64,000 nucleotides of DNA. Source: Phragmites australis. Its lineage: Eukaryota > Streptophyta > Magnoliopsida > Poales > Poaceae. The DNA is taken from the NCBI RefSeq assembly GCF_958298935.1, contig NC_084942.1, positions 1,123,501-1,187,500 of the forward strand. Reading direction: 5' to 3'. Numbering within the stretch: the first letter of the stretch is position 1; every line of letters starts with the position of its first letter. Below the pieces are notes generated by a model. It was given only the letters and a program-made list of their open reading frames with translations, did not search any database and was not told the origin of the DNA. Below are positions 1,175 to 46,345 of this stretch, in pieces. Made by a program: the position numbers and the translations under genes.

Positions 1175-3529
1175 CCGCCGTGGATTGGCATTGGCTGGGG
1201 GGAGCTGGGTACGTGGGCGGCGAGAAATGAGCTGACGCGGCCGCGCATCGCCATCTCATGGCATGTGGGTGGTGCCGGTCTCGGGAGACCCCGCCTCCTC
1301 CTGACCAAGGAGCGAGCGAAATGACCTCATCCTCACTATTTAAAAAATACGAGGTGATCCTAAAGCTTTGACGTGGTCTGCTCCCCTTTCCCGCGCCCTC
1401 CCGTCCGTCTGGGCCATGTCGTGTGCACACATCCAGGCCTGTGCGCGCCCGTCCTGGTCTACTCCCGGCCACAGCCCACCTGCCCTGTAACCTAGCCGCA
1501 TTTTTTAATCATCATGCACTAATCAGGTGCATGCATGCCTTCTCCATGTTGGACCATACTACCTCCAGCATGCATCCATCTCTTTTTCCTATTTCTATAT
1601 TCAATAGCACACGCATGTACGCTATAGAATATTTTTTTCAGCCAGACTCGACGCTTCGATCAAAGACTGTACCTTATGTGTATGTCTCGTAACGCATTTC
1701 AACTCTACCACATTGTAAATTGTACGTCTCTCGTGTGTAAGTCTCATGATGTAATCATCTTTATGTGATCTACCTTCCCCTCCTACGCTCTTCCGTATGG
1801 GTTCCGTAGCCTCTGTTCTGAGTCCTGCACACTCTCGTAGCTTCACATGTCCTCCTATATAAGTTTCTTGTGCTCCGCATCTAACATGCAAAGCAAGTGT
1901 ACCTAACTAGTCAGGATATAATTCCTGGGAGACTTAATCCATTTTCGTCACACTACTGAACATCCTCTCAAAGTTACTCTTGATAATGCACATCGAGACG
2001 GTCGGCAATGGTCGAAAAAAAGAATTGAAAGTTTGTGATAACGGAATAGTAAACGTTGCGAATAAAGTTGTTGCCTCAAAGTAACAGGATCACGAACTGC
2101 AATAACGGTTTTTTCCCCGTTATATACAATCCTTTTTTATTTCAACTTTTCTGATAAAAATAAACACTTGCCCACTAGATATTCAATTTTGACTCTTTTG
2201 ACCACGCCAAGGTCCACTGGCTATGTAAATGAGCTACCTTTGTCAAAGCTTTGGCCACGCCACAACCCATGCTCGTGGCTACATAGGCTGCTACGCCAAG
2301 ACTCATGGCCTGACCAAAAGATTAAAATTTAAAAAATTAGCGGGCTGGAGTTTATTTCTAAAATGTTAGTTAAAAGAGGTTTTAAAATAGAGCGATGCTA
2401 TTTATCAGTGCCTGAAAATATAGTTCTATTTAGGTAACTTGTGTAGACTATCCAATCTTGATCCAATACCTATGCACCTTTCTTCTTCCTCAGTGTTTCT
2501 TCTTCCAAACACATATTATGCTTCTTTCTCATGGCGTGCATCTTGTTCCCTCGCCTCTCGTCCTCCTCCACCCATCTCTAGCAGTGCTCCTACCATCGCC
2601 CGCCGTCTTGCTAACCCGCCGTCCTTGCCTCTCCCGCCCTGGCATTGGCCCAATGACTATCCTCTGCCGCCCACGACCGGCTGCGCTCCCACCACTTCAC
2701 CCCATGCATGTCTCTTCCGCTGGGCCAATCTCCTTCCCCAGAACCTTTTGTAATTCCGGTGACGAAGAAGCCCTCTCTCCAAAATCAACCCCTCTAACCC
2801 TCTAGTGTTCTTCGCCACCTGAACAAACCTCCTAAATTTCATTTGAAATTTAAGAGGCGTGTATGTAAAAATAATAAATCATGATATACTTACACATACT
2901 CCACTAAAACTGTCACATTAAACATGAGAATTTGATATCCCCTGCTATAAACAGTACGAAAGGTCAAGCACGTAGCCAGCAGAGAGAGTCCAGAAAAGAA
3001 CAGAAAATGTGTTCAAGGTGGCAACTCGATCGTTTTTGTTTGGTATACAGCACTCGCAGAATTTCCTTGCTATAATTTGATCCAGGATCATGGATGCTGC
3101 TTTAAGCTTTCTCTTGAGTCCTTGGTAACGCGTGTATGGAGTGAGGCATGGCAATGGCGAAGCGTACTTGGATTGTGATAGACTCGTTAAGCGTACTTGG
3201 ATTGTGATAGACTCGTTCTTTCTTCAGCTGTTGTTACTTGATCACCATCATCGTTGGAGCGTTGGAGTTTCATTCTAATCCCATATCTATCTTTTTAAAT
3301 TTGTTCCTTTCTTGCTTTGATTTTTTTTCCTTTGATCAACCCATCATGCACGCACCAAGGCCTATCTTGATATATATTACTTTTGCAGTAGTCTACCATA
3401 CCATGTTTGAACCGTTCCATGATTGGCCTACATATGTATACCGGTTCTTTTTTATTACATGATAAAGCATACGGACACACCACTATACATACCACACTTA
3501 CTCATGTATACCAATTGATTTGCTATACC
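1175..3529. other. Intergenic, no gene recognised
   Basis: No coding sequence with recognisable domains is seen. The segment 2440-2800 is pyrimidine-rich and gives long but unconvincing ORFs. A perfect 29-bp tandem duplication occupies 3160-3217. The remainder is AT-rich. Confidence 0.5.
3160..3217 (+). repeat. 29-bp perfect tandem duplication
   Basis: The unit at 3160-3188, beginning AAGCGTACTTGG, is repeated without change at 3189-3217, which suggests a recent slippage event. Confidence 0.9.
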
Positions 3530-4801
3530 TACTATGTGAAAAATAGATAAAAAGAGATACAAAATTAATAGTCGTAATATGATCCGTCACTTATGATAAT
3601 AATGATGAATCATAGTTATAACCCGTCATTTATAATTAGTCATAAGTGACATGTCATCTTAGACTAGTCATAAGTAACGTGTCATCCTAAACCAGTCATA
3701 AGTGACAGGTCAGGTTATGCCCTGTCACTAATGACCAACTCATCAGTGACGGATCATTCTAGAGAGTCATTAGTGATAGGTCAAATTCCGACTTGTCACT
3801 AATAACTAGTTTGATAAAACAGAGCAGATGAAGGAATTTACTTAATCAATCATTAGATATATTAGTCAATTAATTCCTACCACAACTTACTTATTTTTTT
3901 ATATAGTAAATATGTACATAGCATGATGCTATATTTTTTTATTTTTCTCTTATATTTTCTCACTTCAGTAGCATTAGAATAGAAACTATTGTACATTTTT
4001 GCTCAAGTTTGATGTAAGGGGTGACGGCTATGGACACAAACGTGTGTTCCGAAAACGGTGTCAAAACTTTAGGGGGCGAGAACTCAATCTTCTAGGCTAT
4101 TTTTGGCCTCGAAAATTTCATGAACCTGATAGTATTAGGAAGAAACGGATGTAATTTTTTCTAAAAATGTACATAGAGTCAAAAAAAACATCAAATCATA
4201 GTTTATATGCAAAAGTTATGCGTATTTTACTGAAGGTCAGTCCGAGTCACCTATTTGGTAACATGTTCTTAGATGATAGGTCATAACAATGACCCATCAC
4301 CTAATCAGTCATAGGTGACAGGTCACAGTTATGACCCGTTACCAATGATCTTCGGCACTGAAGGTTGTAGGATAAAATATCCGCTTCCATTCACAACAAT
4401 GTGATAGCTGAGGGGGTAAGGGGTATGCACACGAGGGGAGGTCGCGTGTTCGATTCCCATAGAATGCGAAGACTGAAAGCGGTTTGAAAAATAGTGTGAC
4501 TTGTGGGTATATGTGATGGGCTTTGTGTTGGGTGTCTCGGGTGAAAAGATATATTTTTTAAAAAATTTTCATGTCAAAAAAGTAAAAAAGTCATAAGTGA
4601 CTGATCACTGTTACGAACTGTCACTTTTAAACTTCATAAGTGATGGATCAATTTATAATCCATCACCTATTATAGAGTTGGTGACAAATCATAACCCATC
4701 ACTAATAATGACTTATCAGTAACACGTTTAAGATAACATATACGGGACTGTCGCTTGTAACGATTACCACGCGTCACATATAACCTTTTTTTCACGTAGT
4801 G
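3530..4801. mobile_element. Non-autonomous CACTA (En/Spm-type) transposon
   Basis: The ends are inverted: TACTATGTGAAAAATAG at the left, and CACTACGTGAAAAAAAG when the right end is read on the minus strand. The left end thus has a first-base C-to-T change from canonical CACTA. A perfect 3-bp target duplication, ACC, lies at 3527-3529 and 4802-4804. The interior holds many subterminal repeats around GTCATAAGTGAC and GGTCA in both orientations, as is typical of CACTA transposase-binding arrays. It is 1272 bp long and no transposase ORF is present, so it would depend on an autonomous relative. Confidence 0.88.
4405..4465 (+). repeat. tRNA-like A-box/B-box segment inside the CACTA element
   Basis: TAGCTGAGGGG (4405-4415) fits a pol III A box and GTTCGATTC (4448-4456) fits a B box. 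The two lie about 33 bp apart, as in tRNA genes and tRNA-derived SINE heads. I cannot fold it into a full cloverleaf, so it may be a SINE relic or a chance match. Confidence 0.3.
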
Positions 4802-6189
4802 ACCTCATGTCCAAATAGGATATACGACATGCTTGTCTTAAGTGAAATAGGTATAGAAGTTGTAAATTGCACTACGGATGATGAGAAACACAGCAAGATT
4901 AGTGATTTTCCACCGCCCGTTTTCATTTGCGAGTGGTCGATGATTTGTAATTTTCTTATGAAGTATCACATATTATGGGAAACAAGTTTGTTGGTAATTA
5001 TGTTATTCATGTTTTGTTAAATTATCAGGAAAGAGACAAATTATAGTAGAAAAATTATCGGCTACTCAAGAAATAATACTATAGAGTAATTAAAACTGTT
5101 GGCCACTCGTAAATAACAGTGAGTAAAAACTGAAACTCTAGTTGTGAAAGGAAGTTAGAAAAAAAGTAGCTAGTCCTGGTTGAGGTTAACTACTCGTGCT
5201 TTAAACATTGTGCAACTCTCTGGAGGCCAAGTATGAGGATTTATTTGACAGAGTTTGTAGAGCTGTTTTTTTTACTAGAATCAGTGGAAGCTCTGTTAAA
5301 TAACAGTTTTTAACTTTTAGTTTTTTTAAGAATTCGTGAGAGTGATTTTCTAAAATGAACTAGAAACCATGAAGCTGAAAAAAATAACTTCACATGATTC
5401 ACTTCCCGTACAGAATCACTTCCTCCTAATATTTTATTTTAGAAAATCATTTTCAGTTACAGAATTACTTACTCTAAAGAAACACTCACCGCTGAAAATT
5501 TAGATCAGAGAGAACTCTATTAATATTCTCTGAATATATAATAAGCACTATACAGTAAAAAAGCACTAAATATAAGCATTTAGTTGACGGAACACGACAG
5601 TGTACGGGTGACGCCCACCAACCGAAGACAGGGGCATGCATCGCAGTTACGTGATAAAAGAAACAAAATGGTATTATATATTACTTCCTACGATAATCGC
5701 TGGTCGTTTTTCCTGTTCCATGATTGATGGTGCCCTCAAAATTCTGCTACTTCTTTCTCTGTATATGCATGGATGCAGATCTTAGCATATCCGGTATTAC
5801 GAAAAATATTTGACAAAGCACTATCTTGTCTTAGCTTATCCTGTACTTCCTTCTGTGGTATGCATGGATATAATTTATTGAGTTGATCCCTTAATAAGCT
5901 GGTCACCTGTTCTATTAGATGCAAAATTCTCCTCTCGATGAACCGATCCAATATGATCTACTTGCAGACTGATCCTCAGTTATTTTGGCTAAGGTGCGCT
6001 AGCTTTAGTTTGGACGAAGGTGCACGGTGAAGATGATGGAACAGAGGCTGGATCCATCCATCGATCCATCGGCGCCATCGTCATCTACTATGATATTAGA
6101 GCTGAGTTTGATCAGCTGTTAATTTTAATTGGCTTCGTGATTTGCAGGTGACAATGGAGAAATAGGGAAAGATCTCTTTTTTTTTTTAA
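4802..6189. other. Intergenic, with a decayed MITE
   Basis: No gene is recognised. The stretch includes a MITE-like copy at about 5238-5512. The segment 5640-6120, upstream of the copia gag remnant, resembles neither the LTRs in this window nor a coding sequence. Confidence 0.45.
5238..5512. mobile_element. Decayed Tourist-like MITE (same family as 47185-47472)
   Basis: The interior aligns with the element at 47185-47472. Shared blocks include GTGATTTTCTAAAATGAACT, the segment around TTCACTTCCCG, TATTTTATTTTAGA and the CAGAGCTG-like left part. The terminal repeats have eroded, so the ends are approximate. Confidence 0.6.
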
Positions 6190-6229
6190 GGTCGTGACTT
6201 TTCGTACTGAAAGGTGCGTATAAGGAAGT

Positions 6230-7960
6230 GTTATATGGGAGATTGTAGACTCTAATTACGAAATTCCTATTATTCGCATTTTTCAGACCCAGATTGAACA
6301 ATATGAATCTAACAACAAAGCTAGAAATATATTGTTCACTAGCCTGAGTCATAATGAGTTTGATAGAGTTCAATTTCTCTGTACAGCTAGAGAGATCTGA
6401 TCTATTCTTAGTTTCTTTCATGAAGGAACCAAACGGATAAAGGCTCGGCGTCAGAGCACGTACAATCAGGAATATCAGATGTTTGTGTAGAGCCTTGGAG
6501 AGTCTTTAGATTCTATGTTTGTTGAATTTGATGAAATTATTAGCAATCTTAGATCCACTGGGGTTTTACCTTATTCTGATAATAAGAGAGCGATTAAACT
6601 TCTTTATACTCTTGAACGTAACATATGGGAAGTAAGATCTCTAGTATTGAGGAGTTATTCAGTTATGACACATTGACTTATGATGAGCAAGCTAAAATCC
6701 ACAGAGATAGCCAAAACGGCTAGAATATGTCTAGAAAACTCACTGTCTCAAAACATAGCATTGATTTCAGGATCTAATATTGGTAGTCATGCTGGAGTTA
6801 TTTTTTCTTGTGCTAACCCCTCAACTTGTAGATTTGCTTTGTCTTCTTTAGTCTCTATTACAGAGGAACAGGTGGATGTGCTTAATGATGAGGATCTTGC
6901 ATTGATCGTGAAGAAGTTCATCCGCTTCTACAACAACATAAGAAACCAAAGAAGAGGCAATGCTCAAGGATGCTTCGCGTGTGGAGACCCTGATCATTTC
7001 AAGGTGGTCTGCCCTAAGCTCAAAAATGGGAAGACCGCAACCACGACTACAACAACCACAAGAAGAACAACAAGTCATTACTCAAGAACTGTGACAAGAT
7101 GGTTAAGAAGGCGGCCAAGGTGGCGTCACGGGCTTTTGTGGCGGCTCTTAGCGACATCGACACATTCTCAAGTGAGGATGAGAGCTCAAAGGAGAAGGAG
7201 CATACCGTGAAGAACAAGGACTTCACCGGCCTTTGCTTCATGGTGGACGACAATGACAATGACCCCGAGCTTAATCCCTCTGAGGTATTGCCTTCCTACG
7301 ATCATCTTTCTGCTGATATTGATACCTTGAATGATGCTCTTGTTAGCTATGATAGTTTACTTAAGAAAGCAGTTTGTGAGTTGAAGGAGTTTAGGCCTAG
7401 GTATGAGTCTGTGTCAATTAATGTTGCTTTGCTTAGGTCTAGGGTAAAAGATGAGGATTGTGAAAGTTGTATGGTTGTTATGACTAAACTTGCCGAGCTT
7501 TAGACTCTACATGCTTAAGTTGTCCGTCGGTTTGAGACTGCTAAGAAGAACCTCCTTGAAGAGGAATCTAGATCTACTCTTCTAGGTGCTTGCAAAAACT
7601 GTCATTTGCTCACAAAGGATGTTGAAGTGAAAGTCAAGTGCATTCAAAATCTAGAGTCTAGATTGGAGAGTGCTGAGTTTTCTAAAGATATGCAGCCAAA
7701 CTGTTCCACATGCATAGTCCTTAAGGACAAACTCAGCTATGTTAGAGGGCAGGTTTAGAAGCTCATGGCCGAGAATGAGTACCTTATTTCTCTTGTGGAG
7801 AAGTGCTCAGAAGGTAAGGGCAGACTGGATTCGATCTTGACCAAGATTAAGATGTGTACCGATAAAGCGGGTTTGGCTCACAAGTTGGGTTTCAAGAGGA
7901 TAACTTACAATGGGGTTAACAAGACTGTTTTTACCTCACCTACTACATAGAAGCTGGAAA
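6230..7960 (+). pseudogene. Copia gag, decayed
   Basis: Spread over three frames is a UBN2-type gag region (about 6270-6720), with recognisable pieces such as ARNILFTSLSHNEFDRVQF and SLDSMFVEFDEIISNLRS. It is followed by a zinc knuckle CFACGDPDHFKVVC (6971-7012), which fits CX2CX4HX4C exactly. Downstream is an acidic, coiled-coil-like C-terminal region (ORFs 7099-7503 and 7765-7950). In-frame stops occur, for example after residue SILSF-proximal CTAREI, and near 7501 and 7757. The product would have been the capsid/nucleocapsid polyprotein. Confidence 0.82.
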
Positions 7961-8539
7961 AATCTAAAGTCAATGCCATACCACAACTCATCAAGAAGAA
8001 ACCCACACCACAATCTAAGAGAGCTCCACAGCCTAAGATGAGAGCCCATGTAAGAGAGTCTAGAGTGACTGGTAGTCAAATTCTCGAGAGACGCTACCAT
8101 TGCACCTGCTGCTAGAGAGAGGGTCACCAAGTTCGGTTTTGCTTTCGCCGTAGGAGAAATGAGCGGTGTGAGTGGGAGTGGAGTACTCGAGACATGTACC
8201 ACCCCTCTTTTGGTGTACATGAGCATTTCCTCGCTCTTAGTCATGAGTTTTCAGCGTTTTTCAGTTTTCTCCTTGAGGTGGTGTCCGACGTGGATCTTAC
8301 CATGATTTATATGGTTTTGCTCCATGTGTCATAGGCTTTGAGTCATAGTGTTTTGGTAGCCCACACTTTACTCGTCGTGGTGTCTACCCCTAGCGTGCTA
8401 GTTCTGATTTGCATGCATATGCTCTTACTGCTTCTGGATGGATGACTCTGTACTGGATTCTCAAGAGGTTTTTGACTAACCCTCGTACCGAGCCATCCAC
8501 CCACTGTTCTTCTCATATGTGGGTGGCAGGCGGAGTCCT

Positions 8540-11500
8540 GGAGAACAAGTGGTTCATCGACTCCGGTTGTTCGCGTCATATGACCAGAGATGCATCATGT
8601 TTCTCCAGCCTTACCCCGATGAAACGACACAAGTACATCATATTCGGGAATGATAGAAAGGGAAGAGTGAAGGTCAAAGGTATGGTAAAGGTGAATGAGA
8701 GTTTTACTCTTAAAGATGTGGCTTTGGTGGAGCATCTGGGATACAATTTGTTTTCTGTATCTTTGTTGTTGGATGAGGACTTGGAAGTGCACTTCATCTC
8801 GATTTCTTATGCCTTAGACGCTTTGGTTTGTCAGATTTCTCGAATTGGGAGAGTTTTTGGAGCCAATTTATCTGAGTTTTATAGTTCTTCTCGGTGTTTA
8901 TTTGCACAACCTTCTTCTGAGCTTTGCATGTGGCATAGGATGTTAGGGCACATGAGTTTTGATTTGCTCTCACAGTTGAGTGCCCTAGGCTTGATCTGAG
9001 GATTTCCTAAGTTCAAGTTTGAGAAGAACCTTATGTGTGCTCATTGTCAGCATGACAAGATGGTTGCTGCCTCTCACCCACCAGTCAATCCACTGATGAC
9101 TGAACAACTGGCAGAGGTTCTCTATATGGACACTGTTGGTTATTCCCTAGTTCGTTCACTGGGTGGGAAGTGGTATGTACTTGTCATTATTGATGACTAC
9201 TCTCAATACTCTTGGGTCTTCTTTCGTGAGCAAGGATAAAGTGTTCTCACACTTTTGGAGCTTAGCTTTGAAATTATTCAAAGAACTCCTTGGTGCATTG
9301 AAAGCAATTCGCAGTGATAATGGTACCGAGTTCAAGAACTATCTCTTTGATGCTTTCTGTCTTGAACATAGCACTAAGCATTAATTTTCTGTCTCACGCG
9401 TTCCTCAACAAAATTGCATGGTTGAAAGGAAGAATCGAACTTTGGTTGAGATGGTTAGGACGATGCTTGATGAGCATAGGACTCCTAGAAAGTTTTGGGC
9501 AGAGGCTATTAGCACAGCTTACTGTATCTCCAATTGGATTTTTTTGCACTCGATTTTGAATGTGGCTTTTATAAGTTGCACTTTGGGAGAAAGCCAAAGG
9601 TTTCTCACTTGAGAGTATTTGGATGTCGTTGCTTCATTCTAAAGCGTGAAAATTTTGACAAGTTCAAGTCTTGTTCTTTCGATGGGATTTTTTTGTGTTA
9701 TTCTCTTCATGGTCATTCTTACAGGGTTTATAATCTTGACAATAACGCTATCACAGAATCCTGTGATGTGACCTTTGATGAATCAATCCTTTGTTCTAGT
9801 ACGCGTGTGCAGGTGACCAAGAGATTGGTGAAAGCATCTTTATAGATGGCAACCTTCTAGCTATTAGTAATGATGAGGATGATCCACTACTTCCTGCTAT
9901 CACACTGGCTTTAGAGCTGGCTCCTCCTTCTTCTACACTAGCAGAGGGTCCTACAGCCTCTATTTCCTCTTCAGCTGCTTTCGGGCCTTCACCAGCAACG
10001 CTTGAGTGGTAGATTATCTCACAACGTGAAGCTCCTCAACACATTCAACGGAGACATCCCCCACAATTGATGATCGGTGACTTTGGTGAAAGGGTAATGA
10101 AGTCCAAATCTACTCAACATGCTCATTTAACTGATTCTGTATTTGTTGCTTCTTTTGAGCACATGATGTTAGACACGCTTTTTCTAATTTAAATTGGGTC
10201 AATGCCATGCATGAAGAACTAGAAAACCTTGAGAGGAACCAAGTTTGAGCCCTTGTAGAGCTACCCCCAAATATCCATACCATACACACCAAATGGGTTT
10301 TAAAAAACAAGTAGGTGGAGGATGGGTGTGTAGTTAGAAACAAAGCTAGACTTGTGGCCCGGGGTTTCACTCAGATAGAGGGGATAAACTTTGGAGAGAC
10401 CTTTACACCAGTAACTAGACTAGAAGTCATTATGATCCTCCTTGCATTTGCTACATCTTAGGGTTTCAAATTGTACCAAATGGATGTCAAAAGTGCTTTC
10501 ATAAATAGATTCATAGAGGAAGAGGTGTATGTCAAGCAACCCCTAGTTTCGAGCACCACAAACACCCACATTGATTATACAAGCTTCAAAAGATTTTGTA
10601 TGAGCTTAAGCAGGCGCATAGGGCTTGGTATGATAGGCTTAAGTCCTTCTTGTAAGAGTATGTGTATGTGATGGGTCAGTCAATAAAACATTGTTTACCC
10701 TTAGGCATGGTAATGACTTTCTATTTGTTCAAATATACGTGGATGATATAATTTTTTGTGGCTCTTCTCATGCACTTGTGGCCAAGTTTGTTAGAAACTA
10801 TGAGCAGAGAATTTAAGATGTCGATGATGGGCGAGCTCAACTTCTTCTTTAGACTTCAAATAAAGCATTGCAAGCAAGGTACATTCGTCCATTAGACGAA
10901 GTATACCAATGATCTATTGAAGAAGTTCAACATGAGCGATGCGAAGCCCTTGGCGACATCGATGGCTACCTCGACCATACTTGATCCGAATGTAGATGGT
11001 GAGGTGGTAGACCTGCGCGTGTACAGGAGCATGATTGGCTTCCTCCTATATCTGACGACGACAATACCCGACATTCAATTTGTCGTTTGCTTGTGTGCTC
11101 GCTTCCAAGCATCACAAAGGACCTCTCACCGTCAAGCGGTGAAGCGCAACTTTAGGTATCTCAAACACACTCTTGAGTATGATCTTTGGTTTTCTGCATC
11201 TTCTTCGCTTTCCCTTTAAGATTTTTCGGATGCCTACTTTATTGGTTGTAGAATTGATAGGAAGAGTACCTCCAATACTTGTCATTTCTTAGGTACCTCT
11301 CTTATTTATTGGTCTACTCGTAAGCAATCTAGTGTTGTGCAGATAACTGCTGAAGCTGAATATGTTGCTGCCACTAGTTGTTGTTTTCAGATTTTGTGGA
11401 TGGTTGCTACTTTGAGAGATTTTGGGTTATCCTACAAGAGTGTGCCACTTTTGTGTGACAACACTAGTACCATAAGCTTATCCAATAACTCAATCCAATA

Positions 11501-15479: not shown

Positions 15480-16508
15480 GCCAGGCTAAGCTCGAATACT
15501 TCACTGAGCTGGAAAACGGGCTCGGCTCAGGCTCCCAGTGGCTCGCGAGCCGAGTCTGCTACTCCACAGTTCCTCGTCACCATCTCCTCTTCACCTACCG
15601 TCGCACCTCCGCTCACGTGCCTCCACATTTGACCTTCTCACAGGGCTCCTGTGGAAGTGCCGCACGGTGGCGTTAGCGCCGGACGCCGACGAGGTGATGC
15701 ATATGATCTGCATTGTCAACACCCGCAGCGGCAAATCTGGTGATGCCATCCCAGAAGGCTACTACGGCAACGTGTTTGCGTTCCCAGTGGTCGTCGCGCC
15801 CATGTCCACTGGAGCCCGGGCCGACAAGCCAAACCGAGGGATGGTGAAGCCGACGCCGGTGGCCATGGCCTAATAGTGTTATTGGCTTCCCAGGAGATGG
15901 CGAAGCCGACACTGGTGGCCACGACGGAGGAGGTGGCGGCTGGTGGCCGCTACCCGCTGGGAGTGCGGACGCGAAGGCCTTCGACAAGGCGGCGGAGGCG
16001 CTCATCGCGCTTAGGGATGCCATGCTGGTCCATGCTTAGGGACACTGTGTTGGTCCGGTGGCGGCGAGTGATCCATTCCAATGGGCGTGTGGTGGATCGA
16101 GAGGGGAGGGGAGGGGAAGAAGATACGTGGGGAGGGGCGATCCATTCCAGAAGCCGAGGAGGGCGGTGGCGGCGCGGTCGATGTGGACGACCTCCTCTGA
16201 GACGGTGAAGGTGGATCTCGTCGGCTTTGGTGGGGAGGCTGAGTGGCGACTGGCCTGATTTGGATCGAGTGTTGCCTGTTGTGTTGGAACCTAAACCTAG
16301 GATATCACATGGGCTAGGGGCAGCTGGGCTTGGGCTCCTGTGGGCTGGCCGGCAAGCGACCCAACGAGCAGCTCGCGAGCCAGCTCGGGCTCGGCTCGAT
16401 TTGACACCAAGCTAGGGAGACAGCTCGGGCTCGGCTCATTTGACCTACGAGCCGAGCCTTTTCGAGTCTGAGCTGGCTCGCGAGCCTCGAGCTTTATTTC
16501 CAGCCCTA
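15450..16508. mobile_element. hAT-type non-autonomous transposon with captured gene fragment
   Basis: The 1059-bp element has inverted ends: TAGGGCTGGAAACAAGC at the left, and TAGGGCTGGAAATAAAGC when the right end is read in reverse. It is flanked by a perfect 8-bp target duplication, CTGGTAAG, at 15442-15449 and 16509-16516. Eight-bp duplication and a TAGGGCTGG-like end are characteristic of hAT. Subterminal GAGCCGAGC/GCTCGCGAGCC motifs repeat near both ends. No transposase is present; the interior is GC-rich and contains a BAHD acyltransferase fragment, so this is a gene-capturing (Pack-type) hAT element. Confidence 0.9.
15628..15798 (+). pseudogene. Captured BAHD acyltransferase fragment
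   Basis: About 57 residues match the middle of benzyl-alcohol benzoyltransferase-like BAHD enzymes. Visible pieces are FDLLTGLLWKCRTVALAPDA, ICIVN and IPEGYYGNVFAFP. The HxxxD and DFGWG catalytic motifs are absent, so only an internal segment was captured. It lies in an ORF beginning at 15538, and unrelated sequence follows after about 15800. A second alanine-rich stretch at 15965-16040 (ADAKAFDKAAEALIALRDAM) may be another captured piece from an unidentified source. Confidence 0.82.
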
Positions 16509-16828
16509 CTGGTAAGGCAGCTAAGATGGGATATAGATGGCCGCTAGGAAATGGTAAGAACGTAAATTTCTAGGAAGATAACTGGTTGGGTACATCTTTT
16601 TAGCAATTATGTTTTGGGACATATATGTTATTGTAAATGAAAAGAATGCCACTATTGCTGAGTTATGGGATGGGGTCAACTTAAAATGTACTTTTCGCAG
16701 ATGTGCCAATGATAGATTAATGAATATGTGGCTATAAGTGTGTCAAATAGTTCAAACTATTGATATGTCAAATGAAGATAGTTTGTGGTATGACAATTTG
16801 ATTCTAAAGGTCAATATAATTCACAATC

Positions 16829-17055
16829 TGTTCGGTGTCAGGCTGGTGCCCCTGGACTGGGCTGGGCCTAGGTAAGCCGAAGGGTACAAAAGAAGGACGA
16901 CATGAGTTGAGAAGGCAACGAACAACAGAGAACCGAACCAGTCTTCCTCTTCATCCTATTCTTCTCCTGCCACTATGCTTCTTTCACCTCTGGATCTTCC
17001 CCTTCTCTCTTCTAAAACCTTCCTCTAGCTTCTTATTCCTCAAGAGCTGCTAACA
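16829..17055 (+). repeat. 5' LTR (227 bp)
   Basis: It begins TGTTCGGTGTCAGG and ends GCTGCTAACA. It aligns end to end with 19236-19462 at roughly 88% identity. It is very short for an LTR, in the TRIM size range. Confidence 0.92.
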
Positions 17056-17057
17056 AC

Positions 17058-17069
17058 TGGTATCAAAGC
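17058..17069 (+). other. Primer-binding site (initiator tRNA-Met type)
   Basis: TGGTATCAAAGC lies 2 nt after the LTR. It differs at one base from the usual plant TGGTATCAGAGC complementary to tRNA-iMet. Confidence 0.85.
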
Positions 17070-17079
17070 TATTCAATCC

Positions 17080-17403
17080 ATGGGATTCAGCATGGAGAGG
17101 GAGTGGAAGATTGGCGCCTGCCACATGTTCAATGAAAAGCCCACAAGCAACCGGAGGCCACCCAACCGCGTTCTCGAGATCACCATGCACAAGGTTTGTT
17201 ACCCCATGACCAAGAAGGTGATTTGTCGAGTGTTTGAGCCATTCGGACCAGTGGAACATGTAGAGGTGTTGGCGGAAACAAATCAAGTGTTCACTCAGGT
17301 GGTGTTTCAAGCAAAGCGTGATGCAACCGAAGTTTATTGGGATTTACATGGCTTGTGTGTGTATGATGGATGCTTTCAGCTCGACATCCATTATGGCATC
17401 TAG
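17080..17403 (+). CDS. RRM (PTB-like) ORF of the LTR element
   Basis: An intact 107-residue ORF starts 11 nt after the PBS. Residues 25-105 resemble an RRM of plant polypyrimidine-tract-binding-like proteins: PPNRVLEITMHKVCYPMT near the start, VFEPFGPVEHVEV in the middle, and LHGLCVYDGCFQLDIHY at the end, corresponding to the PTB motif YDGCCQLDI. It occupies the place where gag would lie. It could be a captured host exon or an RNA-binding protein proper to the element; the intact frame favours some past selection but does not prove it. Confidence 0.7.
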   Translation: MGFSMEREWKIGACHMFNEKPTSNRRPPNRVLEITMHKVCYPMTKKVICRVFEPFGPVEHVEVLAETNQVFTQVVFQAKRDATEVYWDLHGLCVYDGCFQLDIHYGI

Positions 17404-17442
17404 GAGCTTGACTCCATCTGCGACACCCACTCATGTGCCATA

Positions 17443-17775
17443 GGGGATTGTGGGTCAGACCAGGTGGAGTGCAACGGCATGGGAGTCTCCCCGCCCGCCA
17501 CGCTTGCCAAGTTCACCCTCGATGGCACCGGCGGGAAGGACTTCTACGACGTCAGCCTCGTCGACGCTACAACGTGCCCATGCTCGTCCAAGCGGCCACG
17601 TTGGACTGCCCTGATGCGGGGGGCCTCGTGGACCTCAACAATTGTTGCCCCAATGAGATCCACTCTGATGACGATCATGCGTGTCGTAGCGCTTGCGAGA
17701 TGTTCTACCACCCTGAGTGCTGCTGCAATGGCACCTATGACAACCCAGACCCCCACTCCACTGAGCGCTTCTCTC
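17443..17775 (+). pseudogene. Captured thaumatin-like protein fragment
   Basis: Family pieces are seen in two frames. GMGVSPPATLAKFTLDG and DFYDVSLVD are in the first frame; YNVPMLVQAATLDCPDAGG, CPNEI, ACRSACEMF and CCCNGTYDNPD are in the second. The frame changes near 17568, where one base of the expected GGCTACAACGTG has been lost. The conserved cysteines of the PR-5 core are visible, but both ends of the protein are missing and no intron interrupts the fragment. Confidence 0.82.
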
Positions 17776-17779
17776 TCAC

Positions 17780-17935
17780 CAACCCGGTAGTATTCCTCTG
17801 CTTCAGAAGCATGGGCGTGTTCGAGTGGCCGCAAGCCATGGAGATCACCACTGCACTCGAGCGCTGCTGCCACCGCTTATTGTGGGTCCTATGGGGCCCG
17901 CCTGCCATCGAGTCGGGCGCTGGTGCTCTGGACGG
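17780..17935 (+). pseudogene. Captured UDP-glycosyltransferase fragment
   Basis: In the same frame as the second half of the thaumatin fragment, VVFLCFRSMGVFEWPQAMEI and LERCCHRLLWVLWGPP match the segment of plant family-1 UGTs just before the PSPG box (typically FxSxGxF...LERSGHRFLWVxRxPP). The PSPG box itself is not present. Confidence 0.75.
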
Positions 17936-17954
17936 GTCGGAACCCGACGAATGC

Positions 17955-18175
17955 GAAGTCCGTGGATGGCATCTTCAACGTGGACGGTGCCAAATGGTGT
18001 CACCAACAGAAGTTCTCCAGCCTTGAGTTCTCCACCCAAGTGCTGCGTGACTACAACAACGCCGTGTTCTGTGATACGGCCGCGGAGCTCGCGGGCATCG
18101 TGGCCACCGCGGCACAGGGCGCCAGGGACAGGTGGACAAATAGGTCTTGCTGATGCGATCTGGTGCCTGCTGACG
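17955..18175 (+). pseudogene. Captured cytochrome P450 fragment (clan 86, CYP704-like)
   Basis: VDGIFNVDGAKWCHQQKFSS followed by LEFSTQVLRDYN and ELAGIVATAA corresponds to the GDGIFNxDGxxWRxQRKxxSxEF region (helix C) of CYP86/94/704 enzymes. A V-D-K-stop-VLLMRS run just downstream fits the following VDMQDLLMR segment. The helix-C WxxxR motif has lost its arginine (WCHQQ). No heme-binding cysteine region is present. Confidence 0.72.
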
Positions 18176-18199
18176 GCGCGCACCATGCATAGGTCCTGC

Positions 18200-18555
18200 A
18201 CTAGCGTGAGGTTATCAACGCACGCGCGGCGATCCTACGGCACTCAGACGTGTACAACGTTGGTGAGGAGTTGCATGCTAGGAGGTGCCAGCAGGAAAAG
18301 GCCAGTGCAGCCAGCACCCTTCCAGGAGCGTTGTCCGAGGCAGCGGCTGCTGTGAAAGCAACATGGATGTCAGACAACTTAGGCTGGCGCGACCTCGCAT
18401 TCCGTGTGGGCGCCGCGTCCCACGTGCTCCAGATCGTCCTCAACAAGAAGATCCTGGGCGAGCTCGTCATGCTCAATTCCCTGCGCTACAACATTGAGTT
18501 CGGGCGGTTCGTGCACGACCTCATCGACAGGTGGTGCTCCGACTCGACGCCGTGA
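18200..18555 (+). pseudogene. Unidentified captured fragment
   Basis: The ORF reaches from about 18200 to the stop at 18553-18555. It includes HSDVYNVGEELHARR, an alanine-rich stretch, MSDNLGWRDLAFRVGAASHV and LRYNIEFGRFVHDLIDRW. The base composition and codon use look like a grass exon, but I do not recognise the family. Confidence 0.4.
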
Positions 18556-19206
18556 ATGCCCATGTACACGATGGCCACACTAGTGCTGATCCCATTCCCA
18601 AAGGCGCAACGCCTAGACATGAGCATGGACACATGCCACTTTAGCTTCTGGGTCGTCAACCAGATGATGCTCCTTGTGGCGGTGGCAGCCGTCGTCCCCG
18701 TAGCATCGACCGCCTCCCATGACGCACTCACCACCGGCGCTGTCGTTGGGAAGCCAACCGTCCTCGTTGCTGAGAAGCTCGACACCGTGGTGCTCACGCT
18801 GCTGCAGAGGTTCACCAACTTCGACTGCTTCTACGGCGTGTTAGTGATAAGCTGTGGCGTCACTGTGGTGACCTTGCTCTGGGTTGGCATCGACAATTGC
18901 TACGTCATACACTTCCAGTCTGACGGCATCACTGTGCACGGTGGGCACGAGACCTTCATCTGGAACAGCTTCCTCAGCCAACACATGACCACCGGTAGCA
19001 ACCCCGTGCCAGACATCCAGTTGGACAGCAATGACAACTCCGTGCCAGACGTCGTCATCTTCTCCGTGGAGACCGGGATCATGGTCACCGTGCTGACCAA
19101 CACCATCTTCAGTGTGCACTGCTACAACAAGGCTGTGGTGCACAACCTGGGAGGGCAGACAATCCAAGTGCCCTGGAATTCTGGTGGTGCGACGACTACA
19201 GCTTAG
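18556..19206 (+). pseudogene. Captured QRT3-like (pectin-lyase-fold) fragment
   Basis: An uninterrupted 216-residue ORF. Its second half resembles plant QRT3-type polygalacturonase-like proteins: VGIDNCYVIHFQSDGITV, GGHETFIWNSFLSQHMT, DSNDNSVPDVVIFSVETGI and VHCYNKAV. The first half (to about residue 95) is not recognised and may come from another gene. It ends 30 bp before the 3' LTR. Confidence 0.72.
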
Positions 19207-19222
19207 GGTTAAGCCGCAATTC

Positions 19223-19235
19223 AAGGAGAGGGGAA
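19223..19235 (+). other. Polypurine tract of the gene-carrying LTR element
   Basis: AAGGAGAGGGGAA abuts the first TG of the 3' LTR. Confidence 0.85.
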
Positions 19236-19462
19236 TGTTAGGTGTCGGGCTGGCGCCCCTGGACTGGGCTGAGCCTAGGCAAGCCGAAGGGTACAAAAGA
19301 AGGACGATCTGAGCTGAGAAGGCATCGAACAATAGAGCATCGAACCGGTCTTCCTCTTCATCCCGTTCTTCTTCTCTCACTGTGCTTCTTCCACCTATGG
19401 GTCTTCCCCTTCTCTCTTCTAGGACCTTCCTGTAGCTTCTTATTCTTCAAGGGCTGCTAGCA
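19236..19462 (+). repeat. 3' LTR (227 bp)
   Basis: It begins TGTTAGGTGTCGGG and ends GCTGCTAGCA. It has the same length as the 5' LTR and is followed directly by the target duplication CAATC. Confidence 0.92.
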
Positions 19463-19490
19463 CAATCTTTGTATAAGATAGTTAATTTTA

Positions 19491-19856
19491 GGGGAAAATG
19501 TGGTTTCTCCGGTTTCTGAATCACTTTATTTTCATTTACAATTGTCATTCTCTTTTGAGAATAAAAGTCTATTCAACTATCCAAACAATTATATAAAGTG
19601 ATTCTAATTTACTAAGAGAAGCTGGAACGAAAACGTTTCTAAAAGAATTCAGAACCTACCTAACAGAGCCTAACATTATTTAGGGTGTTTGCTAGCTAGT
19701 TTGATACACGTGTTGACACAACACGAAGCGGGCTTGCATTTGCATTGTTCCCTTCCACGGAAACACCGTTAGACACTCATACTTCTTTAATTTGCCCAGC
19801 ACTACAGGAAAGGATCGGAACTAGCTAGAGTACAAGTAAAAGGTGTTGGAAGTGCT
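19491..19856. other. Intergenic, nothing recognised
   Basis: AT-rich sequence between the LINE remnant and a solo LTR. The part 19500-19675 has some MITE-like character (GGTTTCTGAATCACTTTATT and CAGAGCC-like ends), but the terminal repeats are not convincing. Confidence 0.4.
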
Positions 19857-22289: not shown

Positions 22290-24437
22290 GAATGGTGGAA
22301 TAGCAAAGACCAACTAATGTGACTGAGATTCGGAGTTTTCTTGAGCTTGCTGGTTATTATCGATGTTTTGTGTAGGGGTTCTCTATCATTGCTAAGCCGA
22401 TGACCAAACTTACAGAGAAGGGTGCTCCTTTTGAATGGGACGATGATTGTGAGGCTAGTTTTCAGACTCTGAAGGATAAGTTAGTTAATGCCCCTATTCT
22501 TGTTTTGCCCGAGAGTGCCAAGCGTTTTACAGTGTATACGGATGTTTTTCGTATTAGACTTGGTTGTGTGCTTATGCAGGAGGGCAAGGTAATCACTTAT
22601 GCTTCCAGGCAGTTGAAGAAACATGAATGGAATTATCCCACACATGACCTAGAGTTGGCTGCAGTGGTTTTTGCATTGAGAATATGGAGACATTATCTCT
22701 ATGGTGAGTCCTATGATATCTTTACTGATCATAAGAGTCTCAAGTATATCTTTACTCAAAAGAAGCTGAATTTGAGGCAGTGAAGATGGCTAGAGTTGAT
22801 TAAGGAGTGCGATATGATGATTCAGTATCATCCGGGAAAAGCAAATGTGGTGGCTGATGCTCTTAGCAGGACAGGCATTACTAAGGCTGCTATGCCTTTG
22901 GTTGTAGACTTGGACCGTATGGGTGTATCCTTTTGTTTGACAGGCACTGCTCGTGAGGAGACTTAGATGCTCATTCAATCCTCTTTTCTTGACTGTGTGC
23001 GGGAGGCTCAACAGCACGACCGTTTGCTACAGGAGGTTTGTTAGAGGATTGCAGAGGGCAGGCCTAGAGAGTTCAATATTGATGAGCAAGGTGTTGTCCA
23101 CTTCAGGGGATGTCTCTATGTGCCCCAGAAGTCAGAGGTGAAGATAGACATCTTGAGAGAGGCCCATCAGACTCCATATATAGTTCATCCTGGTGAGACT
23201 AAATGTATAGAGATCTTAAGCAAAGTTTTTGGGTGGAAGAAGATGAGAGTGGATATTGCCAAGTATGTGGCAGCTTGTGGTGTATGTCAGCAGGTAATGG
23301 CCGAGCATAAAAGGCATGCAGGGTTGCTTCAGTCTTTGGAGGTTCCCAAGTGGAAATAGGAGCATATCACTATGAACTTTGTAGTTGGTTTATCTCTATC
23401 GCCTCGTGGGCGGGATGCCATATGGGTTGTTGTGGACGGGCTCACTAGGTCCACGTATTTTATTCTTTTGAAGACGACGAGTTTAGCTCAAGATTTGGTT
23501 GCCTTATATATCAAGGAAGTGGTGAGATTACATGATGTGCCTAAGTCGATTATATCAGATCGAGACACCAAGTTTGCATCAAAGTTTTGGCAGAGTCTTC
23601 AGAGTGCTATGGGAACTAAACTTTTTGTGAGTACCACTTTCCATCCTCAGGCAGATGGGCAATCGAAGCGGACCATTCAGACTTTGGAGGATATGCTACG
23701 TGCTTGTGTCCTTTCTTGGAAGGGCAGTTGGGAGGATCACATTATGTTGGTGGAGTTTTCCTATAATAACAGTTATCATGCTAGCTTTGAGATGGCTCCA
23801 TATGAGGCTTTGTATGGCAGGAAATGTGTTTGTCCCCTACGTTGGGATTCGTCTGGTGAGAGGGTTGTGGTTGGTCCCGAGATTGTTCAGCAGACCGCCG
23901 AGAAAGTGCAGGAGATACAACAGAACATGTTGGCCACTCAGAGCTGACATAAGAGTCATGCAGATGTGAGGAGATGTGAGCTGGAGTTTGCAGTGGGTGA
24001 CCAAGTTCTCCTCAGAGTATCACCCACAAAAGGGTGTTGTTCGGTTTGGCACTACATGGAAGCTTAGCCCAAGGTACATTAGGCCTTTTGTTATCACACC
24101 TCGAGTTGGCAGTTTAGCTTATCATCTACAGTTAATGGATTCTATGAGTGGTGTGCATAATATCTTCTATATATCTATGTTGAGGAAGTATCGGAAGGAT
24201 CTAGAACATAAGATTGATCTCGAGCCTATCACAGTGCAGGATGACTTGTCTGTTGAGTATCACCCAATGTGTATTTTGGACTTGTTAGAGTGAGTCATGA
24301 GGAGGAGGATGATCAAATATGTGAAGGTTTTATGGACTAATCAATCGGAATGTGAAGCAACGTGGGAACTTGAGGAGCAAATGCGTAAGAAGTACCCAGA
24401 GCTCTTCGAAGTTGGTGAGTTTTACTTTATGGTCTAA
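22290..24437 (+). pseudogene. Chromovirus pol remnant (RT end, RNase H, integrase, chromodomain)
   Basis: RT thumb/connection (LAGYYR near 22348), RNase H ([37 protein letters not shown]; 22520-22750), the H2C2 zinc region (ending CGVCQQVMAEHK near 23300) and the integrase core (VVVDGLTRSTYF, ISDRDTKFASKFW) are all readable. In the integrase core the expected catalytic Glu in GQSERT is Lys (GQSKRT, about 23657-23677). Stops at 22780, 22965, 23041, 23358 and 23945 also disable it. A chromodomain-like tail ends with a TAA at 24435-24437. Confidence 0.85.
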
Positions 24438-42864: not shown

Positions 42865-44379
42865 CTATGAGGAACAAATCATGGGAGTGTATGGTCTCCA
42901 ACAGATCCGGTCAAGAACAAGGACGAAAGCCATGATCATCGCGCAATCCACGTTCGGCTGGACCACAAGGCTGAACACATCGTCACCGAGCGTCAACGAA
43001 TTTGACGCTGCTTCAGCCTTCTTCCTCATTATCCTGGCCACCTCCTCGCCGTTGCTATTGTGGATCTTGCAGCTTCTTCTCCTGAAGCAACCCTCAACCC
43101 AGAAGCTGGGAGCATGCTCCGTGTGGCGATCTGATGCGCTTGTTGTGCATCCTGACATGAGCACTTCTGCTTCGTGACCTTTTTGCAAAACGGAGCATTT
43201 TCTCATTGAGAAGAGCTGCTGTGATCTTGTCCTCTTGCCTTGGCCTTCTTCTGATGCTTTGTAGCAATTCCATTGGTCGTGCATGCTGAAAATCTGTTGC
43301 AAAATAAAATAACTTTGTTAGATTTAATTTTCTGCCACTAGTTGTAATGATCTTGCTGGCCAGTAAGAGACCAATGCTTGCGTTCATCTGTTGTACACTT
43401 GTAACTAGGGATATAAGTCCTGTCAAAGAAAGAAACGAACTATGGGAGGGGATAAAGCAACGATTAACTTTGGATTTTGATTCGACGTACATTGGATTTA
43501 GCTCAGACTATATTAAACTGTCAAGAAAATAATCGAGGCTGATAGCATACGGAGCAGGAAACAAAGCATTTTGTCTGTTCTGAGCACATTTTGTACTTTC
43601 GTAGATGTATTTTTCTTTATGGAGTGAGGTGATTGAATTTCCTGTAAAAAATTGTCATTTTCATTTGAGCTGAATATTCTGGTGAGCTACCAAATGTTTG
43701 TAGTAGTGGCAGCAAGACAAATAAACTATACAAACTCGCGCATCCAATTTAATTTGGCGAGAACTATTCTAGGGAACAACGAAAAAATGTTGGACAGATC
43801 AAAGGAGACTCTCGTTGAATCAGAAAATTTTGCAGTGTGTTTCAGATGCGATGGTACAAAATAATAAAGCTTTGGATGAACATTTCGCGATCTAAAAAAT
43901 TCCCTGCTATACATCTACATTAGAAAGAATTGCTACTGGAAAATTAAATCTAATTCTACGATGATGGTGACCAGAATATACATCATATCATTGTTGAATC
44001 CTGATTCGTTGTACCATTACGTACTAGATGAACATCTGAATATTATGGTCGATGTAACTGCAGCATCTGCGTCGTATATACATCAGGACATGCTTAACAT
44101 GAAATTCGCAAGTGACGGATATGTCACCTGTGGTCTGAGGGCGAGGAGAGGCGAGCCCAGCCCATCCATGAGGAGCAGCTCGCCGGTGAAGAGCTTGCGG
44201 CGGCGGGAGTAGTTGTCGACGCGGAACGCGAGGGCGCCGGCGGCGTCGTAGACGGAGAAGCCGTCGGTGCCTTGGAAGCCCATGCTGGACCTCTTCCACA
44301 CCGTGTAGTGCAGGGCATCATCTCCGGCGCGGTGGTGAAGAGGAGGCCTGGTCTCGGAAGGGTGTATCCGGCTCATCAT
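42865..44379 (-). CDS. LURP-one-related (LOR) protein, two exons
   Basis: Exon 1 (44128-44379) runs from MMSRIHPSETRPP to LLALRPQ and ends CAG|GTGACA. Exon 2 (42865-43293) follows GCAACAG and begins IFSMHDQWNCYKAS. Joining is in phase 0, giving 226 residues and an 834-bp intron. LOR signatures: VWKRSSMGFQGTDGFSVYD, AFRVDNYSRRRKL, LLLMDGLGSPLL, then RRSCKI, GDDVFSLVVQP and a hydrophobic MIMAFVLVLDRI near the C-terminus. It is the closest relative of the LOR gene at 34-36 kb and keeps the same intron position and orientation, so the pair arose by duplication. The TATA box (44426-44443) puts the transcript start near 44400, which favours the ATG at 44379 over the in-frame one at 44406. Confidence 0.92.
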
Positions 44380-44425
44380 GGTGGATCGATCGGGGAAGGT
44401 CGTCATCGATCTCCGATCCTCAGCT

Positions 44426-44443
44426 CTTTTTATATATATATAT
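44426..44443 (-). promoter_or_regulatory. TATA box of the third LOR gene
   Basis: On the minus strand TATATATATATAAAAA lies about 50-60 bp before the chosen ATG, predicting a very short 5' UTR. Confidence 0.6.
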
Positions 44444-46345
44444 GACTCGGATCGGTCTCTCTCTACGTACGACGTACCCGTTTGCTGCTGCTGCTGCTGG
44501 AATGTCGCCAAGTTCTTGGTGACCTGTGAGTGTGCAGCTGCGTGGCATCGCACCTTTATGATCGGTTGTGTCGTGTGCATGCGCCAGGATCAAGATTCCC
44601 ATGCCCTATGTAAGTACAGGTAAGGCTCACGAGGAACCTTCTACGAATAGGAAGATAGTTAGTCACAAAATTATTTACTTTTAATTTAAATATATTTCTG
44701 AGGAAAAAGTGAACAGTTTATTTATACTTTAACGATTATTGTTACTTCACGACAATTGACTATACAGTCGTAGGCACCGGTCCCCATGTTCACCTTCCTC
44801 CCTGCTGCCTCGCCCTCCTCTCCATCTACAATGGCTCATCGCAGTGGCACCACTGGCTTTTGGTTCCCTATGCCTTGACCACTCTCTCCTACTCTTCGGT
44901 CACCCCTAACTCTAATCTGCAACCATAGATGACCCCTTTGGCCTCATGCATCCCATCCATTTGTTGAACCCGCACACTCATTGTCTATTCCCTACAAGCT
45001 CACAATCATCAAATTTTAAGTAAACTTTCGATCTCTGTATCAATAAAACGTTAAAACGTACAAGATGCACACAATCATTTTAAAAAAAATAGATACCCAA
45101 ATTCGTGTCTAAAAGAACTTGAACTCAGATGGTTTAGACGTGCACACCCTCAACAAAATGAGCTATCCTCATCTAGGCTGCCCCTTACATTACATCAGTG
45201 CAACGGTGCCGCTCTTCTCTTCCTCCAACCCTGCTGCCCCATCTTCCTAACTGTTTCCAATGGCTCACCATTGCCGCACCACCACTTCCCTAAAAACCGT
45301 AACTAAATGCTTCCATTCTTCATCCTACTATCCTCTGCCGCCCATTGCCCTCCTCCAATCCTCCATGCTCAGGAACTGCAGTGTTCATCAAGACCTAGTC
45401 CTTTAGACTCTGACCCACTAGAAATAGAGATTGGGGGTGGTAGATTGATTTGTGCATAAATCGTCGTTCAGATTGGTTCTTTAAAATGTAGTTGTAATAA
45501 CATATGAGACAATCATATATTCCCTTCATCTCTAAATAGATAACATTTTAGAGTTAAGTATAAGTATTAAGGTGAAAATAAAATGATCATCTTGCTCACT
45601 ATTAATACTAGTTATTGTATGGGAAATAAGAATAACATTAAAAAGGAAGTTACTAAAGTTATCTCAATATTATAAATATCATATATTTTAAACATTGTAG
45701 AAGAGACTAAAACATTATTTATTTTGAGACGGATGGTGTATAGCCTAATATGTAGCACTCGATCGTTTGTAGGCGTGTACTGAAGTCGATAATCGGGCAT
45801 CATAACATGTCATTATTTCCCAAGCACGCTTCCCTGCCCAGTTCGTTGTAAATCAGTAGAGATATATACTTCGAGTAATCACTTGGATTAATAAGTGCCC
45901 ATTCAAGTGTTAAAGCTCAAGATTCCGCAAAAATTGTTTTCTTTTGTCCTTCCTTTTGGTGAGTGGGTGAAGTGGAATTCCTGAGAGGTCACCGTCATGC
46001 ATGCGTGAACTTCCTTCGCAAAAAAAAAAAAAAAAAAAAAAGAGCATGCGTGAACTTGTGATGCGTTCCAGCATCTCCTTCTAGCTAGTTGGTAAACCAA
46101 AACAGCAGTCAGAAACAGGAGGCGTTACCAGTCACCAAAACTTGACTCCGTTAATTCCTCTTCAAACTCTCTTTTTAATGGTCTTGAAAAGCATGTCCTG
46201 ACAGAGAACAATTTGGATATAGACAAGCATTTTGTCAGATCCATCTTACACCACACTAGCTTGAATGAGTGATTCGATCGGTGGACTAAATACCCACTTC
46301 CATTATAAAATGGTCAACTAAACGATTGTTTATCTGACAACAATA
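44444..46345. other. Intergenic with a Stowaway and a poly-A run
   Basis: Contains the Stowaway at 45520-45738 and an A-rich run of about 22 at 46020-46041, possibly a retroposon tail. The segments 44780-44900 and 45200-45400 are pyrimidine-rich and resemble 2440-2700 in composition only. Confidence 0.45.
45520..45738. mobile_element. Stowaway-like MITE
   Basis: TTCCCTTCATCTCTAAATAG at the left pairs with ATTTTGAGACGGATGG at the right, and TA flanks both sides (45518-45519, 45739-45740). Non-coding, 219 bp. Confidence 0.72.

Follow-up and report, generated by a model that had tools for sequence, protein, structure and literature searches.

The window analysed here is a stretch of 64,000 nucleotides from Phragmites australis (NCBI RefSeq assembly GCF_958298935.1, contig NC_084942.1, positions 1,123,501 to 1,187,500 of the forward strand). 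It holds, at positions 16829-19462, a complete long terminal repeat (LTR) retrotransposon of 2634 bp, hereafter EL, which is non-autonomous as far as its ORFs show and carries pieces of host genes as its interior. The hallmarks of LTR retrotransposons are present, namely paired TG...CA LTRs, a short target site duplication (TSD), a primer-binding site (PBS) and a polypurine tract (PPT). The 5' LTR (16829-17055, + strand) and the 3' LTR (19236-19462, + strand) both measure 227 bp, start with TGTT and finish with CA, and align without any gap at 88% identity (28 differences, i.e. 21 transitions and 7 transversions). The K80 distance of the pair is 0.1375, or a divergence of about 5.3 million years at a substitution rate that we assume to be 1.3e-8. 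The TSD, CAATC, is exact on both sides (16824-16828 and 19463-19467). The PBS TGGTATCAAAGC (17058-17069, + strand) shares 11 of 12 bases with the complement of what we take to be the 3' end of tRNA-iMet. It is the sole 11/12 match on the + strand of the window, and a relaxed form of this pattern had no second occurrence on either strand of the whole window. The 13-base PPT AAGGAGAGGGGAA (19223-19235, + strand) is part of a 3' tail module (19190-19235, + strand) common to the family described below. The original prediction, drawn from the letters of the window without database searches, had described LTRs of equal length, a perfect target duplication, a tRNA-iMet-type PBS and a PPT around an interior lacking protease, reverse transcriptase and integrase. 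Each of these features is borne out, the last one among the open reading frames (ORFs) scanned.

No match to gag, protease, reverse transcriptase or integrase was found among the ORFs given to domain searches, and EL is therefore classed as non-autonomous. An Rfam scan of positions 16800-19500, up to an E value of 1, revealed no 5S rRNA-like sequence of the kind found in the terminal-repeat retrotransposon in miniature (TRIM) Cassandra, and DNA patterns derived from the EL LTR had 0 matches in the viral and bacterial collections. The insertion site is a decayed LINE-like (long interspersed nuclear element) sequence (16500-16828 and 19468-19560). When the two flanks are joined at a single CAATC, a LINE-like reading frame is restored by eye (SQSLYKIVNFRG).

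The EL interior reads as a series of host-gene pieces in sense orientation, drawn from at least seven genes. Behind the PBS lies a 5' head module (17091-17400, + strand) with an RRM of the hnRNP-L/PTB type (Pfam PF11835, RRM_8, 1e-13). It is followed by a thaumatin-like protein (TLP) piece (17430-17753, + strand; PF00314, 2.9e-14 and 1.9e-8), which is split over two frames by the loss of one base relative to its donor, and by a UDP-glycosyltransferase (UGT) piece (17781-17943, + strand; PDB, 3.6e-6). The next piece (17965-18160, + strand) resembles the cytochrome P450 CYP704C1 in the protein database, with grass CYP704C1-like proteins among its matches (best E value 5e-16; 13 of 56 residues differ from the Panicum protein); we take CYP704 to belong to P450 clan 86. 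A cellulose synthase-like D (CSLD) piece (18228-18388, + strand) is 80% identical to a host gene. Its name comes from inspecting the translated donor by eye and is probably correct, given a Cellulose_synt match in the sibling element L031. The ORF at 18205-18552 matched nothing in PDB, Pfam and NCBIfam, and none of 20 candidates in the protein database reached an E value of 1 or below; only the host donor gave it an identity. About 290 bp then follow (18389-18679, + strand) with a coding-like codon composition in frame 0 and no match among the candidates listed. The last two pieces come from a D-3-phosphoglycerate dehydrogenase (PHGDH; 18680-18837, + strand; PDB, 2e-12) and from a QRT3-like polygalacturonase (18851-19133, + strand; protein database, 1.3e-33), the latter with 18 bases missing and with its best match in Phragmites.

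These searches uphold five of the six pieces originally proposed (RRM, thaumatin-like, UGT, clan-86 P450 and QRT3-like), as well as the sense orientation of the recognised pieces: ten ORFs in other frames (3 on the plus and 7 on the minus strand) gave a best Pfam E value of 0.021, under the cut-off score. The sixth piece, an "unidentified protein", stands in part, as 18389-18679 stays without a match, but it also contains the CSLD and PHGDH pieces, which raises the count from six to at least seven genes. No named chimeric protein resembling the EL cargo was present among the 39 P450 and 5 QRT3 search hits.

We then searched the EL interior against the host genome (848 Mb, 28 contigs), with 40 of 55 candidates scored. 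Each of the seven recognised pieces has matches elsewhere in this genome, and five were matched to host genes, as the original prediction had suggested looking for. These five aligned to their donors at a nucleotide identity of about 80-82%: TLP at C18:27524749-27525073 on the - strand (81.2% over 325 columns), P450 at C7:32392298-32392490 (80.6%, with about 81-82% also given, over 196 columns), CSLD at C22:20226555 (80.1% over 161 columns), PHGDH at C7:36274889-36275046 (81.0% over 158 columns) and QRT3 at C13:27866317-27866612 (82.4%, range 82-83%, over 301 columns). Part of the protein encoded by the QRT3 donor is identical to a portion of a Phragmites australis protein. All five also have another host copy that is slightly more distant, as expected in a tetraploid; Phragmites australis is described as an allotetraploid (PMC11742667). 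The matches examined for the RRM (L055, L066 and L067) and for the UGT piece (L060 and L031) read by eye as family copies and not as host genes, so that L055 (C4:48651) was dropped as an RRM donor and L060 (C2:49564) as a UGT donor.

With the second host copy as reference, the EL branch carries 166 substitutions, distributed as 52/47/67 over the three codon positions (P = 0.14 against a uniform distribution). The donor branch shows 2/4/13 changes, and the other copy 16/5/27, a count that includes changes common to donor and element. The EL cargo thus seems to have decayed close to neutrally. Divergence on this branch does not differ significantly among the five pieces (chi-square 2.78, 4 df, P = 0.59), which gives no sign of captures far apart in time and fits one short period.

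To describe the family, LTR queries were run against the genome. They gave 15 and 20 places, partly overlapping, and 19 loci, EL included, were read and compared using eight LTR and tail queries. Further copies had been anticipated, and LTR-related sequence was found in 18 of the 19 loci (all but L034), with the 3' tail in 15 (all but L015, L032, L033 and L034). Both LTRs are present in ten loci (EL, L009, L010, L013, L016, L017, L019, L021, L030 and L031). EL, L010 (GTATT) and L031 (ATTTT) have exact TSDs of 5 bp, and the flanks of L009 and L030 agree at 4 of 5 bases. Over the seven family pairs measured, the LTR K80 distance lies between 0.055 and 0.24. In L009, an insertion of about 1.45 kb (around 4734-6193) interrupts the 3' LTR, and L021, on the reverse strand, contains at 1623-6475 what looks by eye like a nested copia element, with 2 differences between its LTRs over 171 sites. 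Family-like head and tail matches also occur about 9.5 kb apart at C13:6468200 and C13:6477756, and one more family-like match lies at C15:4521913. The candidate new element family of the original prediction therefore has several genomic members, and our literature search, with subscription journals outside its reach, found no account of it.

At least two types of 5' head are present among the members. EL, L009 and L011 have the RRM head, while L010, L015, L017, L019, L021, L030 and L031 share an alternative one. The RRM head module is common to EL, L009, L011, L066 and L067, with the RRM core only in L055; on this distribution the RRM appears to be a module of the family and not private cargo of EL. 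Among six copies of this head, second codon positions have the lowest or tied lowest number of differences in 15 of 15 pairs, as raw counts over pairs that are not independent.

One frame of EL, frame 0, is nearly open, with 6 stops over 716 codons where the other two frames have 26 and 20, and has a high third-position G+C over most of its length. In 5000 simulated sequences, the minimum number of stops over frames averaged 16.8 and was never as low as 6. This test is too generous, because each piece derives from an exon that was already open and TLP-UGT lies in a different frame. For these reasons we dropped the strict version of a single intact chimeric ORF at insertion; an ancestral chimeric ORF in EL is possible. 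The open frame might also suggest that the interior was once an ordinary or domesticated gene, since degraded, lying between unrelated direct repeats. The TSD, the PBS, the PPT, the copies of the LTR family elsewhere and the matches to seven unrelated gene families all speak against such a gene. We give this explanation practically no credence, and the family copies with both LTRs already refute it.

The cargo differs from member to member. L009 carries the RRM (2.2e-13), a Pkinase match below the cut-off (1.3e-5) and a single ORF in which a UDP-glucose epimerase (PDB, 3.1e-24) is fused to LOG (Pfam, 1.9e-7). Other members gave GH17 (L010; Pfam, 3.4e-7), ClpB (L013; PDB, 1.8e-14) and Cellulose_synt (L031; Pfam, 1.1e-13). 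L011 combines the RRM (2.4e-7) with pieces of a ureidoglycolate hydrolase (UAH; PDB, 8e-13) and of a phosphofructokinase (PFK; PDB, 3.8e-12). When 17 interiors were compared, long shared stretches were found only between L010 and L030 (1447 columns) and between L013 and L016 (1548 columns), the next longest being the head shared by EL and L011 (369 columns). At smaller scale, a TLP patch is 76% identical between EL and L015 versus 81% between EL and its donor, and the UGT patch at 17839-17943 is also found in L031 and L060. In L060 and at L031:3519-3914, a starch-synthase piece appears by eye to be joined to a UGT piece, perhaps a fusion common to both. None of these relatives was seen to have a normal gag-pol: no Pfam match to gag-pol at E ≤0.1 was obtained in 40 ORFs selected among twelve related loci, the ORFs of the nested copia element in L021 being excluded.

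The splicing state of the captured sequences can be read in L011. Its UAH piece consists of three donor exons joined contiguously (96, 94 and 83% identity), the third with a 7-base insertion. In the UAH donor gene at C23:21396 kb, two introns bounded by GT...AG, about 100 and 335 bp long, lie between these exons, and both are absent from L011 exactly at the exon borders. The UAH piece is flanked on both sides by PFK pieces, the downstream one giving the PDB match of L011 mentioned above, and the two PFK pieces are collinear with a PFK gene at C13:19.9 Mb (63-72%). The UAH piece starts with CGTCGAC, a sequence also present at that point in the PFK paralogue L052, while L051 has CGTCGAT. Template switching predicts a move onto a second mRNA and a return to the first, as with UAH ending up inside PFK, and the L011 evidence fits the capture of spliced mRNA by this route. 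Capture from spliced mRNA, proposed for EL from the outset, is hence favoured by L011; EL itself cannot show it, since its five donor-matched pieces cross no intron. As for the proposed serial capture by template switching, the same-genome donors support the capture of several genes, while the word "serial" may or may not apply, given the homogeneous divergence of the pieces (P = 0.59).

Readthrough 3' transduction is a documented plant route (PMC13317346) and, combined with internal deletion, could in principle explain every captured gene without template switching. It requires that the element inserted independently next to all seven genes and then lost the linker each time, and a UAH piece lying within PFK and starting at a shared sequence is not among its predictions; we regard it as highly improbable. 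Another possibility is that the pieces entered as DNA (through a Helitron, a Pack-MULE or break-repair filler) inside a small LTR element that was then copied. Helitron capture is common, a maize survey reporting 1194 Helitron captures versus 425 LTR elements with captured fragments, from at least 189 independent events (PMC2774510). No inverted pair of more than 15 bases was detected within or touching the EL interior, in a scan not aimed at Helitron ends. The recognised EL pieces all have the sense orientation, L011 cleanly lacks two introns, and different cargo lies between the same LTR-proximal ends across members. Entry as DNA is accordingly very unlikely.

We consider it very probable that EL is an old member of a non-autonomous LTR family which captures host genes and which acquired its cargo by template switching on spliced host mRNAs, followed by reshuffling. 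This explanation draws on the anatomy, the five donors, the member-specific cargo, the two exact intron absences in L011 and the UAH piece inside PFK. The members would keep only what is needed for mobilisation in trans, i.e. the LTRs, the PBS, a short 5' head, the 3' tail and the PPT, with mobilisation presumably provided by an autonomous partner. Host mRNAs would be co-packaged with the RNA of the element, and reverse transcriptase would switch templates at short shared sequences, so that pieces of spliced mRNA replace the interior. Recombination among members may then spread and reshuffle the pieces, although the direction of sharing is itself conjectural. It is doubtful, though conceivable, that the family is in addition a standing exon-shuffling lineage, in which copies retain a translatable head (the RRM or another N-terminus) and an in-frame tail and recombine packaged host mRNA pieces between the two, allowing chimeric proteins to be repeatedly made and reshuffled, the RRM head possibly holding RNA.

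Several observations weigh against capture by template switching on spliced mRNAs as we propose it. The intron test covers UAH only and the overlap was checked at the UAH start only, and L011, the bearer of the splicing evidence, is a partial member without a 3' LTR. The five donor-matched EL pieces each lie within one uninterrupted donor stretch, and no host donor was found for the RRM or the UGT piece among the genome matches examined. On the EL branch, the ratio of nonsynonymous to synonymous changes is 0.69 of the neutral opportunity (P = 0.02), which makes a wholly neutral decay uncertain. Within the family, 26 of the 40 ORFs have no Pfam match at E ≤0.1, and ORF scans detected no recognised cargo in L017, L018 and L020. 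For L016, L019 and L030, no ORF match rose above chance, and their cargo is recognised only through DNA similarity to L013 or L010 or by eye; L021 yields no more than a weak F-box match (0.0037, under the cut-off), and the GMC match of L010 reaches only 0.052. Moreover, no autonomous partner was found among the loci examined.

The non-autonomous maize element Bs1 is similar to EL in that unrelated host-gene pieces lie between its LTRs. It is described as a low-copy LTR element (PMC2774510) with pieces of three host genes and a new chimeric gene (PMC13317346). EL differs by its at least seven genes and by a cargo that varies among family members, a distinction based on the description of Bs1 and not on its sequence. 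The soybean TRIM GmaRetroS15 is likewise a small LTR element with a 5-bp TSD and pieces of several genes, in this case exon-only cargo from three genes (PMC4717578). The LTR of EL is short (227 bp), as in TRIMs, but its 2.63 kb and at least seven genes exceed the gene-carrying TRIMs of the same report, which measure 1.17-1.45 kb and whose named example has three genes (PMC4717578). Gene pieces also occur in intact LTR elements of maize, rice and sorghum (PMC2774510, PMC3726574). Among the 425 intact LTR elements with fragments in the maize survey, none is reported, under its conditions, with more than one standard nuclear gene (PMC2774510); this survey was not fully sensitive, because it evidently missed maize Bs1, which holds three genes. 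Multi-gene capture is thus known, while at least seven genes in one element together with member-varying cargo fall outside the descriptions of Bs1, GmaRetroS15 and the maize survey as given in these sources. The original prediction had expected EL to be among the more gene-rich cases; it has at least seven genes versus three in Bs1 and in GmaRetroS15. Copy-specific host-gene cargo is also a feature of Pack-MULEs and Helitrons, DNA transposons whose family copies carry different host-gene fragments. The EL family differs from them by its LTRs, its PBS, its PPT and, where tested, its intron-free cargo.

Gene capture by LTR elements is usually told as single events. The EL family gives several, with donors still in the genome, so that one can read directly where the pieces join, whether the captured RNA was spliced and in what order events took place. 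The template-switching model thereby becomes testable in a plant. The family shows how virus-like elements can cut and paste plant genes.

Weak Pfam and PDB matches of pieces of the window, for example to Ribonuclease_T2 (0.095), CxC2 (0.014) and a tailspike domain (0.11), were under the cut-off and were set aside as chance. Elsewhere in the window, the ORFs at 389-1057 and 44083-44580, both on the - strand, are alike by eye and are possibly LURP-one-related host genes. Finally, the ORFs at 6680-8999 and 23372-23947 look by eye like copia gag-pol and gypsy integrase remnants.

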